From a virus: a DNA stretch of 25,780 bases. The position numbers and the translations under genes were made by a program. The stretch lies in the IMG/VR virus record IMGVR_UViG_3300021197_000963, positions 1-25,780 of that record; one strand, given 5' to 3'. Below the pieces are notes generated by a model. The model did no database searches and had not been told where the DNA came from. It saw only the letters and a program-made list of their open reading frames with translations. Shown here in pieces: positions 6,189 to 24,128 of the stretch; position 1 is the first letter of the stretch; the number at the start of each line of letters is the position of its first letter.

Positions 6189-7580
6189 ATGAAAATATCG
6201 TATAAGAAACTTAACGAAATAATTCCATACGAAAACAATCCACGAAAGATCAATAAAGGTGTTGATATAGTAGCGGAAAGTATACAACAGTATGGATTCC
6301 AACAGCCTATAGTAGTTGATACAGACGGTGTTATCATAGTAGGACACACAAGATATCAAGCCAGTAAAAAACTAGGTCTAGCAGAAGTTCCAGTCACAGT
6401 AGCAGACGAACTAACAGAAGAACAAATCCGAACTTACCGTATTATGGATAATAAAAGTGGAGAGAAAACATTCTGGGATGAAGGTCTATTGGTAGAAGAA
6501 CTTAAAGAACTATTACCAGACAGTAGTATACAAGACCTTAGTTTCGAAACAGGCTTCAGCGAAAGTGAACTAAACAAATGGTTAACTGAACCAGAAAAAG
6601 ATGATCTAAGTGATCTAAGTGCTCTACGCACTAAAGTTCCAAGAGCACAGTGGGGTGATGTATATACGCTGGGTGATCATAAACTTGTATGTGGTGATAG
6701 CAGTGATGCAGAAACAGTAAAACTATTAATGGGTGAAGATCGTGCTGAAATCATATGGGAAGATCCACCATACGGTGTAGAATACAAAACTCCAATGGCA
6801 ATAGTATATGGTGATAAGTTTGCTAAAGATTGGAGTGCAAAAAACGATATTGAAAACGATGATCTAAACGAAGAACAACTAGACGAACTGTTAACTAAAC
6901 ATATGAGTGCAATACTTCCATACTGGAACAAAGGTGGAGCAATATATTGGTGTCACGACCAAAAATTCAATCATCAATTCAAGCAAATATTAATAGCAAA
7001 CAATGTGCATATAAGCGATACTTTAATATGGAAAAAAGACCTACACAGCACCTTTACAAGTGATTACTGTAAGATATATGAACCTATACTATACGGATGG
7101 CAAAAGGGTGAAGCACACAGATGGTATGCAGAGCGTATGCAACACAATGCACACACAAGTGAAGAACTGGATAACCTAACCAAAGAACAACTGATAAAAA
7201 TTATTAAACACAATCATACTAACTATCAAGAGATTAAAAAACTTCCAGCTAAAGAATCAGCTAAGATGCACCCTACAGTTAAACCACCAAAATTGATATC
7301 ATATCACTTGCTTAACAGCACCAAACGAGGTGATATAGTGTATGATGGATTTAGCGGTAGTGGAAGCACACTGATAGCGTGTGAAAAAACAAATAGAGTA
7401 GCTCGTTGTATAGAGTTCGAAACAAAGTATATAGATGTAATAATCGAGAGATGGCAAGAGCTAACAGGCCTTAAAGCAACTAGACAAGATGGAACACTGT
7501 GGGATGATATATATGATACAGCGTTGCAAAGCGAAGTTGATGATAATTTAACAGAGGTATTCAACCTTGCCGCTGACTAA
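6189..7580 (+). CDS. ParB-like domain fused to DNA adenine methyltransferase, 463 aa
   Basis: Residues 1-130 form a ParB/sulfiredoxin-like domain: NPRK (17-20) and 'VIIVGHTRYQASKKLG' (48-63) with the GHTR signature. The rest is an S-adenosylmethionine-dependent methyltransferase: catalytic DPPY at 192-195 (motif IV), a target-recognition stretch, 'HPTVKPPKL', and the cofactor motif 'DGFSGSGST' near 386-394. The order IV then I is that of the beta class; DPPY usually means N6-adenine. No restriction enzyme is visible, so it is an orphan enzyme, likely protecting phage DNA or marking it for packaging or regulation. It ends 14 bases inside terL. The recognition sequence cannot be read from the protein. 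Confidence 0.88.
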   Translation: MKISYKKLNEIIPYENNPRKINKGVDIVAESIQQYGFQQPIVVDTDGVIIVGHTRYQASKKLGLAEVPVTVADELTEEQIRTYRIMDNKSGEKTFWDEGLLVEELKELLPDSSIQDLSFETGFSESELNKWLTEPEKDDLSDLSALRTKVPRAQWGDVYTLGDHKLVCGDSSDAETVKLLMGEDRAEIIWEDPPYGVEYKTPMAIVYGDKFAKDWSAKNDIENDDLNEEQLDELLTKHMSAILPYWNKGGAIYWCHDQKFNHQFKQILIANNVHISDTLIWKKDLHSTFTSDYCKIYEPILYGWQKGEAHRWYAERMQHNAHTSEELDNLTKEQLIKIIKHNHTNYQEIKKLPAKESAKMHPTVKPPKLISYHLLNSTKRGDIVYDGFSGSGSTLIACEKTNRVARCIEFETKYIDVIIERWQELTGLKATRQDGTLWDDIYDTALQSEVDDNLTEVFNLAAD

Positions 7581-8790
7581 TCCACAAAAAACTATATTTG
7601 ATTCTCAAAATCGCTTCCGGCTAGCTGTGTGTGGGCGTAGATTTGGAAAAACACATTTAAGTAAATGGGAAATAGCTCGTGCAGCAAGGTTTCCTAATAG
7701 GCGTATACTATACTTGGCACCTAATTATCGTCAAGCAAAAAGTATTATATGGCAAGACCTGAAAGATGAATTGGGTGCAAGAAGATGGATTAAAAAAATT
7801 AACGAAAGTGAGCTTAGTATAAGACTAGTTAATAATACACTAATTGAACTTCGCAGTGCCGAATCAGCTGATTCTATAAGAGGTATACAGTGTCATTTCG
7901 CAGTATTAGACGAGTGCGCCTATATGCCTCCAGAAGTTTTTAGCCAAGTAATCAGACCCACACTATCTGACACTGGCGGAGGGGCTTTATTCATCACAAC
8001 TCCTATATCGCAAAGTAACTGGGTATATGACTTGTATATGCAGTGTGATCACTTGGAAGACTGGAGTAGTTTCCAATATACAACTCTCGACGGAGGTCAG
8101 GTTCCAGCTGTAGAAATAGAAGCTGCTAAAAGAGATTTAGATCTAAAAACATTCCAAGCTGAGTATCTAGCTGACTTTACAAGTGGATCAAGACTAGTAT
8201 ACTATGCATTCGATAAAGCTAACAATATAAAACCGTTCACAGATAGACCAAATCAGATTTGGATAGGCGCTGATTTCAATATAGAACCTATGAGTGCAGT
8301 AATAGGAACTCCAACCAAAGCTGGCTTCCATATCTTTGATGAAATAATTATACCTAATAGTAATACACACGAACTAGCAGAAGAAATAGTAAGACGATAT
8401 GGTGGACACAGAATAACAGTGTTCCCTGATCCGGCAGGTAGTGCAAGAAAAACAGCAAGCCGTGGGCGTAGTGATCACGACATATTGCGAGAGTATGGAC
8501 TAGAAGTTCGTAGCAAAAAAGCTCACCCTAAAGTAAAAGATAGAAACGCTGTAGTAAACAGTATGCTACTAAATGCACAAGGTGAAAGCAGACTGTTCTT
8601 CGATCCCAAATGTAAAACAACAATTGATAGTGTAAGTAGACACAGTTATAAAGCCAACACAATGATACCAGACAAAGACAGTGGAACTGACCACGCCACC
8701 GACTGTTTAGCATATGTCGTAGACTATAACTATGCTATCAGAGACACAAGAGATACATTTAATAAACCAAAAGTATTTGGAGCGTTTTAG
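7567..8790 (+). CDS. terL: Terminase large subunit
   Basis: The DNA-packaging motor and headful/end-cutting nuclease. ATPase: Walker A 'CGRRFGKT' (22-29), Walker B 'FAVLDECAY' with D115-E116, and the 'ITTP' coupling motif at 143-146. Nuclease domain: 'GADFN' with D236, 'FPDPAG' with D288, and 'DHATDCLAY' with D375/D379. 407 aa is a compact, normal length. The start is a TTG at 7567, overlapping the methyltransferase end; a GAGG lies about ten bases before and no ATG is available in frame nearby. The last codon is one base before the promoter of the small RNA. Confidence 0.95.
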   Translation: MPLTNPQKTIFDSQNRFRLAVCGRRFGKTHLSKWEIARAARFPNRRILYLAPNYRQAKSIIWQDLKDELGARRWIKKINESELSIRLVNNTLIELRSAESADSIRGIQCHFAVLDECAYMPPEVFSQVIRPTLSDTGGGALFITTPISQSNWVYDLYMQCDHLEDWSSFQYTTLDGGQVPAVEIEAAKRDLDLKTFQAEYLADFTSGSRLVYYAFDKANNIKPFTDRPNQIWIGADFNIEPMSAVIGTPTKAGFHIFDEIIIPNSNTHELAEEIVRRYGGHRITVFPDPAGSARKTASRGRSDHDILREYGLEVRSKKAHPKVKDRNAVVNSMLLNAQGESRLFFDPKCKTTIDSVSRHSYKANTMIPDKDSGTDHATDCLAYVVDYNYAIRDTRDTFNKPKVFGAF

Positions 8791-8791
8791 G

Positions 8792-8820
8792 TTGACAAAC
8801 AATATAAACAATGCTATAAT
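8792..8820 (+). promoter_or_regulatory. Perfect sigma-70 promoter of the terL-portal small RNA
   Basis: TTGACA (8792-8797), 17-base spacer, TATAAT (8815-8820), with TGC directly before the -10, making an extended -10. Every consensus base is present. It begins one base after the terL stop. The expected start is about 8826-8828. Confidence 0.9.
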
Positions 8821-8826
8821 AAATAC

Positions 8827-8989
8827 AATTGAAGCAACTAGAACTAGGAATCAGGTTGTTTTAATTTCTCCTGTAGGGTTAACGAGTGTTAACTCTAGGG
8901 TTGCGAGTGCAGCCCACAATTACTATAACGAAGTTAAAGTTAAGTTAAAAACTCAGCCCAGCATTAGCCCCCTAGTGTTGGGCTTTTTT
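8827..8989 (+). ncRNA. Structured small RNA between terL and portal, about 163 nt
   Basis: The unit from perfect promoter to perfect terminator holds no ATG at all. Read by hand it folds as follows. H1: 8827-8839 with 8854-8866, 13 bp including three G-U pairs, starting at the expected first base. Linker TCTCCTG (8867-8873). H2: 8874-8883 with 8888-8897, 10 bp, loop GAGT. H3, abutting H2: 8898-8904 with 8909-8915, 7 bp, loop GAGT again. Then an AU-rich single strand with three GTTAA units, and ACTC (8951-8954), complementary to the GAGU loops. Then the terminator hairpin. I recognise no known family. Possible roles are an antisense regulator of phage mRNAs or a protein-binding RNA. The host-type promoter suggests early expression amid late genes. 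Confidence 0.8.
8955..8989 (+). terminator. Intrinsic terminator of the small RNA
   Basis: A 13-bp stem (8955-8967 with 8972-8984; two G-U pairs) with a CCCC loop, GC-rich at the base (AGCCCA/TGGGCT), followed by six T (8984-8989). A textbook intrinsic terminator, which also isolates the portal operon from the small-RNA promoter. Confidence 0.92.
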
Positions 8990-9006
8990 CTGTCAGAATT
9001 TAATTG

Positions 9007-9014
9007 GATAAATA
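9007..9014 (+). promoter_or_regulatory. GATAAATA motif, candidate late promoter of portal operon
   Basis: An intergenic GATAAATA copy 98 bases before the portal start and just after the small-RNA terminator, so the portal operon needs its own promoter here or readthrough. The leader contains the palindrome AGTATATACT (9020-9029) and a small stem CCGAT/ATCGG (9033-9037 with 9046-9050). Confidence 0.45.
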
Positions 9015-9111
9015 AAGTAAGTATATACTGAACCGATCAGGTTTAATCGGGTGACAATAGTCTATGTCGTAAAAAATGGACAGACAAAACACTCTATCAG
9101 AGGAAAAACAT

Positions 9112-23678: not shown

Positions 23679-23683
23679 GTTAT

Positions 23684-23863
23684 AACAACAAGGCCGTCAA
23701 GTCCTGTTGTTTACAGTAGAGATACTGTCCTTTACAATTATAACAAGATGACAATCTAAAAGCAAATGCATTAGCAGGTCGACCCTAACTCATAGGTCTC
23801 TCCTTTCAATGTTCAACAACATAAAGCTGTAATCAGCCCCTTGTCCTGCTAATATCTTTTAGA
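23684..23863 (+). ncRNA. Candidate structured RNA with four-way junction
   Basis: On the + strand: hairpin 23684-23711 (7 bp, bulge, 2 bp, nine-base loop); hairpin ACAGTA-GAGA-TACTGT (23713-23728, GNRA loop); then P1 23755-23762 with 23856-23863 (8 bp), an internal loop, P2 23771-23778 with 23845-23852 (8 bp). Inside P2 are P3 GACC(c)TA/TAGGTC (23781-23798), P4 ATGTT/AACAT (23809-23822, loop CAAC) and P5 GCTG/CAGC (23826-23837, loop TAAT). All helices use perfect or nearly perfect pairing. The linker TCTCCTTTCA (23799-23808) is complementary to AAAGGAGA. The strand is uncertain, since most pairs hold on both; GATAAATA at 23671 and GNRA loops favour +. Confidence 0.5.
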
Positions 23864-24006
23864 ACCTTAAATAAAGCATAAACACCACATAATTCACCAA
23901 AGATGATAAATATATATGTAAGTGTTAATAAGTGATATACTTGATTTGCGAAAATAATTATAGCCGATTCTCCAATCAAATATATAATATCTATACGCTG
24001 TGCCAG
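23833..24006 (-). CDS. Possible small membrane protein with CTG start, 57 aa
   Basis: The only credible minus-strand gene. GAAGGAG lies seven bases before a CTG codon (24004-24006). The product, LAQRIDIIYLIGESAIIIFA and onward, has two hydrophobic spans (about 6-20 and 26-47: 'LLTLTYIFIIFGELCGVYAL') and a basic end KVLKDISRTRG. Against it: CTG is a rare start, no minus promoter is evident, the left arm of the inverted repeat lies within it, and AT-rich DNA gives hydrophobic reading frames by chance. Confidence 0.25.
   Translation of the reverse strand: MAQRIDIIYLIGESAIIIFANQVYHLLTLTYIFIIFGELCGVYALFKVLKDISRTRG
23905..23912 (+). promoter_or_regulatory. GATAAATA motif at the left arm of the inverted repeat
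   Basis: Sixth GATAAATA copy, eight bases before the left inverted-repeat arm (23920). No gene follows for about 220 bases on the + strand. Could promote a leader through the repeat, or be a chance copy. Confidence 0.25.
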
Positions 24007-24043
24007 TGTAAGACTCCTTCAAGTATATCTCTTATTAACACTT
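23920..24043. repeat. 25-bp near-perfect inverted repeat pair in the control region
   Basis: Left arm 23920-23944 begins AAGTGTTAATAAG and ends GATATACTTGA; the right arm 24019-24043 is its reverse complement with one mismatch. The 74-base spacer has no recognised element. The right arm's last two bases are the first two of the -35 box of the promoter at 24042. Arm centres are about 99 bp apart. Likely paired operator sites (possible DNA looping) or, if transcribed through, a long hairpin. Confidence 0.75.
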
Positions 24044-24070
24044 GACAACTGCTACAAATAGTAGTATAAT
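24042..24070 (+). promoter_or_regulatory. Perfect sigma-70 promoter of the right-hand gene cluster
   Basis: TTGACA (24042-24047), 17-base spacer, TATAAT (24065-24070). It faces the genes at 24129-25555 with a leader of about 50 bases. The -35 box overlaps the inverted-repeat arm, so a protein binding there would block RNA polymerase. Confidence 0.9.
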
Positions 24071-24098
24071 ATATTAAATGCCCAGTTAATAAGCTGAG

Positions 24099-24106
24099 TA
24101 TAAATA
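24099..24106 (+). promoter_or_regulatory. TATAAATA site in the leader of the 24129 gene
   Basis: An exact match to the T4 late promoter core, 23 bases before the ATG, between the sigma-70 promoter and the first right-hand gene. It may be a second, late-phase promoter or a chance match in AT-rich DNA. Confidence 0.25.
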
Positions 24107-24128
24107 CAATAACACAGGAGATATGATA

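Follow-up and report, generated by a model that had tools for sequence, protein, structure and literature searches.

A predicted RNA gene between terL and the portal gene

The sequence analysed here (the window) is the whole 25,780-base IMG/VR virus record of a phage for which metagenome sequences are the sole source. Terminase, portal, scaffold, capsid and tape-measure genes are found within it. The gene located upstream of terL (6189-7580) has separate parts that match ParB-like and DNA-methyltransferase families, indicating a fused protein. A single base separates the terL stop codon (TAG, 8788-8790) from the -35 hexamer TTGACA (8792-8797) of an extended sigma-70 promoter, in which a 17-nt spacer is followed by TG-N-TATAAT with its last base at 8820 (Table 1). 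This promoter, noted in the preliminary description and recovered here with a full consensus match, is the sole 12/12 site within the first 15 kb of the window. Counted over both strands, the window has three perfect TTGACA-TATAAT sites with spacers of 16 to 18 nt, compared with 0.03 in 100 dinucleotide shuffles. The other two are located at 24042-24070 and 25577, and the former lies upstream of a gene at 24123 whose start region matches the UUUCUCC core over 8 nt.

Table 1. Coordinates of the promoters, predicted RNAs and structural elements in the window
Feature	Position	Strand	Observation
Sigma-70 promoter, TTGACA-17-TATAAT, extended TG	8792..8820	+	12/12 consensus match
ATAAATA, late-promoter-like, overlapping -10 of the RNA promoter	8819..8825	+	putative function
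Predicted small RNA, ~163 nt	8827..8989	+	fold z -5.2; no ATG
H1 hairpin	8827..8866	+	fold
UUUCUCC, complement of Shine-Dalgarno GGAGAAA	8865..8871	+	mostly unpaired, H1-H2 linker; same promoter-strand motif in 10 non-redundant units
H2 hairpin, GAGU tetraloop	8874..8897	+	fold; covariance-model match 8875-8918, E 3.8e-9
H3 hairpin, GAGU tetraloop	8898..8915	+	fold; covariance model
Intrinsic terminator, 13-bp stem and T run	8955..8989	+	stem 8955-8984, 6 G-C of 13 pairs
ATAAATA of the portal gene	9008..9014	+	~100 nt ahead of portal start; distinct from RNA promoter
Second RNA of the same kind	23906..24044	+	ATAAATA 23906; hairpin 23919-24044, 14-bp closure, UUCUCC (23968) within

Of 11 terminator-like sites found across the first 15 kb, the terminator hairpin has the longest stem, and its T run extends to 8989, as had been described. 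In L001, the closest relative of the window (portal identity 89%), the T run of the counterpart is retained and the stem is changed.

With its own promoter and terminator and with no ATG in any frame of 8827-8989, the unit agrees with the earlier reading of a free-standing noncoding RNA gene. One frame, ORF 8732-9031, is without stops across the entire RNA, which would allow the locus to be part of a small protein-coding gene. However, the start ATG of this ORF lies within terL with no visible Shine-Dalgarno sequence, no family match was found for it in PHROG, and in L001 the frame is interrupted by an in-frame TAG beside the T run (read by eye). A conserved reading frame had been named as evidence against an RNA gene; the frame is instead broken in the nearest relative. 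On the strength of the L001 stop, the missing internal ATG and the missing PHROG match, the protein-coding reading was rejected as extremely improbable.

The predicted fold of 8827-8989 has a free energy of -56.1 kcal/mol, which none of 200 shuffles equalled or bettered, and the structure signal persists (z -3.4) when the last 42 nt containing the terminator are removed. The preliminary description had the interior folding almost entirely into helices. The strong fold bears this out in large part, yet the claim is slightly too strong, as the centroid structure leaves most of the roughly 40 nt ahead of the terminator (8916-8954) unpaired. The first two U of UUUCUCC are base-paired within H1. 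H1 itself had no homologue among the sequences searched and the window RNA as a whole had no alignable one, alignment being restricted to H2-H3. Comparison with other phages supports H2-H3 and the UUUCUCC linker. H3 may resemble a stretch of 16S rRNA.

RNA units in the corresponding gap of related phages

Relatives were gathered from IMG/VR through their portal proteins (54-91% identical) and are all uncultivated phages, from which 19 non-redundant portal-upstream regions formed the comparison set. Protein comparison finds only remote isolates, with portal identity to Pelagibacter phages of at most 35%. Of the 19 regions, 14 contain a TTGACA promoter whose -10 is fair (1.2 in shuffles) and 13 contain TTTCTCC on one strand or the other (1.0 in shuffles), some of the latter possibly being ribosome-binding sites of real genes. 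In 18 of the 19 regions, against 3.2 in shuffles, a TAAATA precedes the portal start by no more than 135 nt, and in the relatives its distance from that start is nearly constant at about 86-93 nt. Thirteen predicted transcripts of 80-248 nt gave fold z-scores from -2.7 to -8.2, to which the terminators contribute part. Most relatives carry such an RNA unit in the terL-portal gap, and the earlier view that a unit of this kind is unusual at this site does not hold within this group of phages.

Orientation varies: the window, L053, L056 and L059 have the unit on the portal strand, whereas L057, L063, L066, L006, L075 and L076 have it on the opposite one. Regardless of orientation, UUCUCC is on the promoter-transcribed strand in all 10 non-redundant units having both promoter and motif. 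The L060 unit does not contain UUUCUCC. Because the orientation of the unit changes and the portal gene has a separate promoter element, these sequences are better fitted by an RNA acting in trans than by a late-operon leader.

The portal-upstream regions of L061 and L003 apparently hold two convergent RNA units with one common bidirectional terminator. Their minus-strand unit contains UAUUUCC and (A)CAGCUCAU or CGCUCAU, sequences also found in the RNAs of G005 and G006. The L003 contig looks chimeric, having two oppositely directed portal genes and a left part resembling G005/L004.

Hairpins with GAGU tetraloops

GAGT was the commonest tetraloop in the phage contigs examined, accounting for 10 of 148 hairpins of at least 7 bp (some of the contigs being related), and was 3.8 times as frequent as expected at hairpins of at least 5 bp. 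The stems flanking the loop differ, with AAC[GAGU]GUU, GC[GAGU]GC, AGU[GAGU]ACU and AAU[GAGU]AUU all represented, and the loop varies less than its stems. Across 15 hairpins, some with near-GAGU loops, 38 double-change cells were counted versus 10.6 in shuffles, although the rows had been chosen as hairpins and the count is hence not an independent test of pairing.

Tandem pairs resembling H2-H3 are found in L103, L105, L106 and L108, in another tail-gene neighbourhood, and in G005, G006 and G008, downstream of tail genes. In L105 and L109 the pair is immediately upstream of coding starts. One unpaired base separates the tandem hairpins in L103, L105, G005 and G006, versus adjacent helices in the window fold. 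A covariance model seeded with L103, L105, L106, L108, G005, G006 and G008, leaving the window out, gave one match in the window, at H2-H3 (41 bits), its E-value of 3.8e-9 being rough owing to short calibration. No other single observation weighs as heavily as this match. Weaker matches to the same model were obtained in L064, L071, L078, L056 and L109. Compensatory stem changes in relatives, which the preliminary description had proposed to look for, were thus found for H2-H3 through the covariation and the model, but not for H1, of which no homologue was found.

Searches of isolate-phage DNA with the tandem hairpin returned partial matches only (E of at least 0.7). A tandem-pattern scan of a genome collection gave 35 matches, judged to be chance because almost none had both stems, H3 being assessed by inspection of the sequence, and because their count was near that predicted from pattern length. 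Single-hairpin scans of viral contigs returned, tandem loci aside, mostly unrelated contexts and were likewise set aside.

The UUUCUCC motif

In most of the relatives UUUCUCC is enclosed in a hairpin closed by 10-15 bp, the stem sequence of which differs between groups, so that no common sequence is alignable among them. For 12 of 13 sites in relatives only 0-2 of 200 shuffles gave a closing hairpin as good; the exception is L075, where the script picked another site. The window RNA has no such closing hairpin for its motif (93/200 shuffles as good).

In many relatives the sequence 5' of the motif is complementary to what would be a spacer plus AUG, so motif and preceding bases look as if they had originated from a translation start. 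Complementarity of the motif to gene starts of the same phage was overall not above that to genes of other phages. Exceptions are L004 and L072, with matches of 12 and 11 nt, respectively, to their own early-type genes; a 12-nt target match in L003 was not counted apart from that in L004 because of the chimeric appearance of the contig. As own gene starts are not enriched, a host target would be expected.

A second RNA and ATAAATA elements in the window

The second RNA of the window lies within a segment (23913-24099) that folds with z -6.4, and its closing stem was matched by none of 200 shuffles. The 14-bp closure surrounds GAUUCUCCAAUC, and no terminator is visible directly downstream. Another structured noncoding stretch at 23679-23862 (z -2.9) has UCUCUCC within a long imperfect hairpin.

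Nine of the 11 plus-strand ATAAATA sequences in the window are intergenic and upstream of genes or RNAs. On this strand the element recurs ahead of genes at 191, 964, 4959, 9008, 10571, 23672 and 24100. This recurrence resembles T4-type late promoters, in a genome that is siphovirus-like. The stretch from 9015 to 9111 forms the portal leader and contains small hairpins.

Interpretation and alternative explanations

Comparison of these sequences supports the existence of the gene and the conservation of its design; transcription of the predicted RNA, its having a target and repression of that target are what we infer from it. We consider it highly likely that 8827-8989 is a gene for a trans-acting sRNA. 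The perfect promoter, the terminator and the strong fold support this, as does the recurrence of this layout in the relatives' gap, on either strand and with the portal TAAATA separate. Further support comes from the covarying GAGU stems together with a window-free model that matches 8875-8918 only, and from the same tandem design in phages with other gene neighbourhoods. The explanation is weakened in that nothing alignable with the entire window RNA was found, H2-H3 being the only part that aligns.

Host RNA polymerase carrying sigma-70 would initiate this RNA directly after terL, and the intrinsic terminator would stop it short of the portal operon, which is served by a promoter of its own. 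Three kinds of module would make up the RNA, namely GAGU hairpins, an exposed anti-Shine-Dalgarno UUUCUCC and a terminator hairpin. H2 and H3 would probably act as a protein-binding or stability platform, while UUUCUCC would pair with the ribosome-binding site of at least one mRNA, a host message being a likelier target than a phage one, and so block translation initiation. The RNA is most likely a translation repressor, with Shine-Dalgarno pairing as the presumed means; put otherwise, a genuine regulator that works away from its own locus is probable, and blocking of ribosome-binding sites is its possible mode of action. The whole statement, sRNA gene and UUUCUCC pairing together, stands in our judgement at even chances. 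Pairing is favoured by the constant placement of UUCUCC on the promoter strand, mostly in closed hairpins of the relatives, and by the matches of L004 and L072 to their own gene starts. It is weakened by the lack of enrichment among own gene starts, by the motif of the window, which has no closing hairpin and whose first two U pair in H1, and by the L060 unit without the motif.

The GAGU hairpins might instead serve as a decoy or scaffold that binds a host or phage RNA-binding protein, UUUCUCC being part of the site or incidental. A loop steadier than its stems and common to several phage groups is in keeping with this, as are the tandem pairs directly ahead of coding starts in L105 and L109. 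However, a pure decoy would have no use for the recurrent promoter-strand UUUCUCC in closed hairpins, and no protein binding GAGU was identified; we hold this reading possible but doubtful. A leader or attenuator of the late operon, giving a short RNA until an antiterminator permits transcription into the portal and head genes, would suit the window, where the unit is directed toward portal and its terminator is just ahead of that gene. The lambda 6S RNA, which runs from pR' to tR', likewise has a strong sigma-70 promoter and a terminator just ahead of late genes. In several relatives, however, the unit is reversed, and a portal TAAATA separate from it is present in 18 of 19 regions, which makes a leader unlikely.

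The put RNA of phage HK022 consists of two adjacent stem-loops that alter polymerase, and the tandem hairpins of the window (H2-H3) and those spaced by a single unpaired base in L103, L105, G005 and G006 are reminiscent of it. Yet the window RNA is stand-alone, with a strong intrinsic terminator within about 40 nt downstream of H2-H3 and no gene in between, and a cis-acting antiterminator of this type is very unlikely. The location between terminase and portal also brings to mind the pRNA of phi29, a phage RNA gene near packaging genes. A structural RNA of DNA packaging is nevertheless highly improbable, given that the window RNA matches no Rfam family model, that the relatives vary in shape and orientation, and that related RNAs occur elsewhere in the same genomes.

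Relationship to known RNAs and significance

No Rfam family matched the window RNA at gathering thresholds, in keeping with the preliminary description, which could name no matching family, and relaxed matches were at chance level. Isolate phages showed no DNA similarity to 8700-9100 and no convincing match. In the literature searched, the coverage of which is incomplete, no GAGU or anti-Shine-Dalgarno phage RNA of such a design was found. Yfr1 and Yfr10 are cyanobacterial sRNAs; Yfr1 has a short pyrimidine-rich unpaired motif between two stem-loops, Yfr10 has its motif atop a stem, and the UCCU of the motif is required for target pairing (PMC6778093). The motif of the window RNA is also between stem-loops and that of its relatives also at the top of a hairpin. 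However, the motif is a different one, and the window RNA is a phage gene with GAGU hairpins and without an Rfam match. The layout is by analogy like that of Yfr1 and Yfr10, and family membership is not claimed.

Phage-encoded trans-acting sRNAs are known as a kind, most of those described having come from temperate phages whose hosts are in culture (reviewed in PMC12197685). The window RNA is like these in carrying a promoter and a terminator of its own, in lacking an ORF and in presumed base-pairing, but no relationship to them in sequence or structure was found. We judge the RNA gene to be real and of a known kind, phage sRNA, with a new design, its family not being described in Rfam or in the literature searched. 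More tentatively, these RNAs may represent a class of viral regulators that is widespread and as yet undescribed, built as modules from GAGU-tetraloop hairpins and a Shine-Dalgarno-complementary loop, which would use a host RNA-binding protein to silence chosen host mRNAs. Such a class would be common to phage groups whose gene neighbourhoods differ and would occur more than once per genome.

Two questions follow directly, namely which messages would be silenced and whether a protein, and if so which, reads GAGU. Little is known of sRNAs in uncultivated phages, and with the GAGU hairpin and UUUCUCC as a defined set of two motifs such genes can be found in viral metagenomes.
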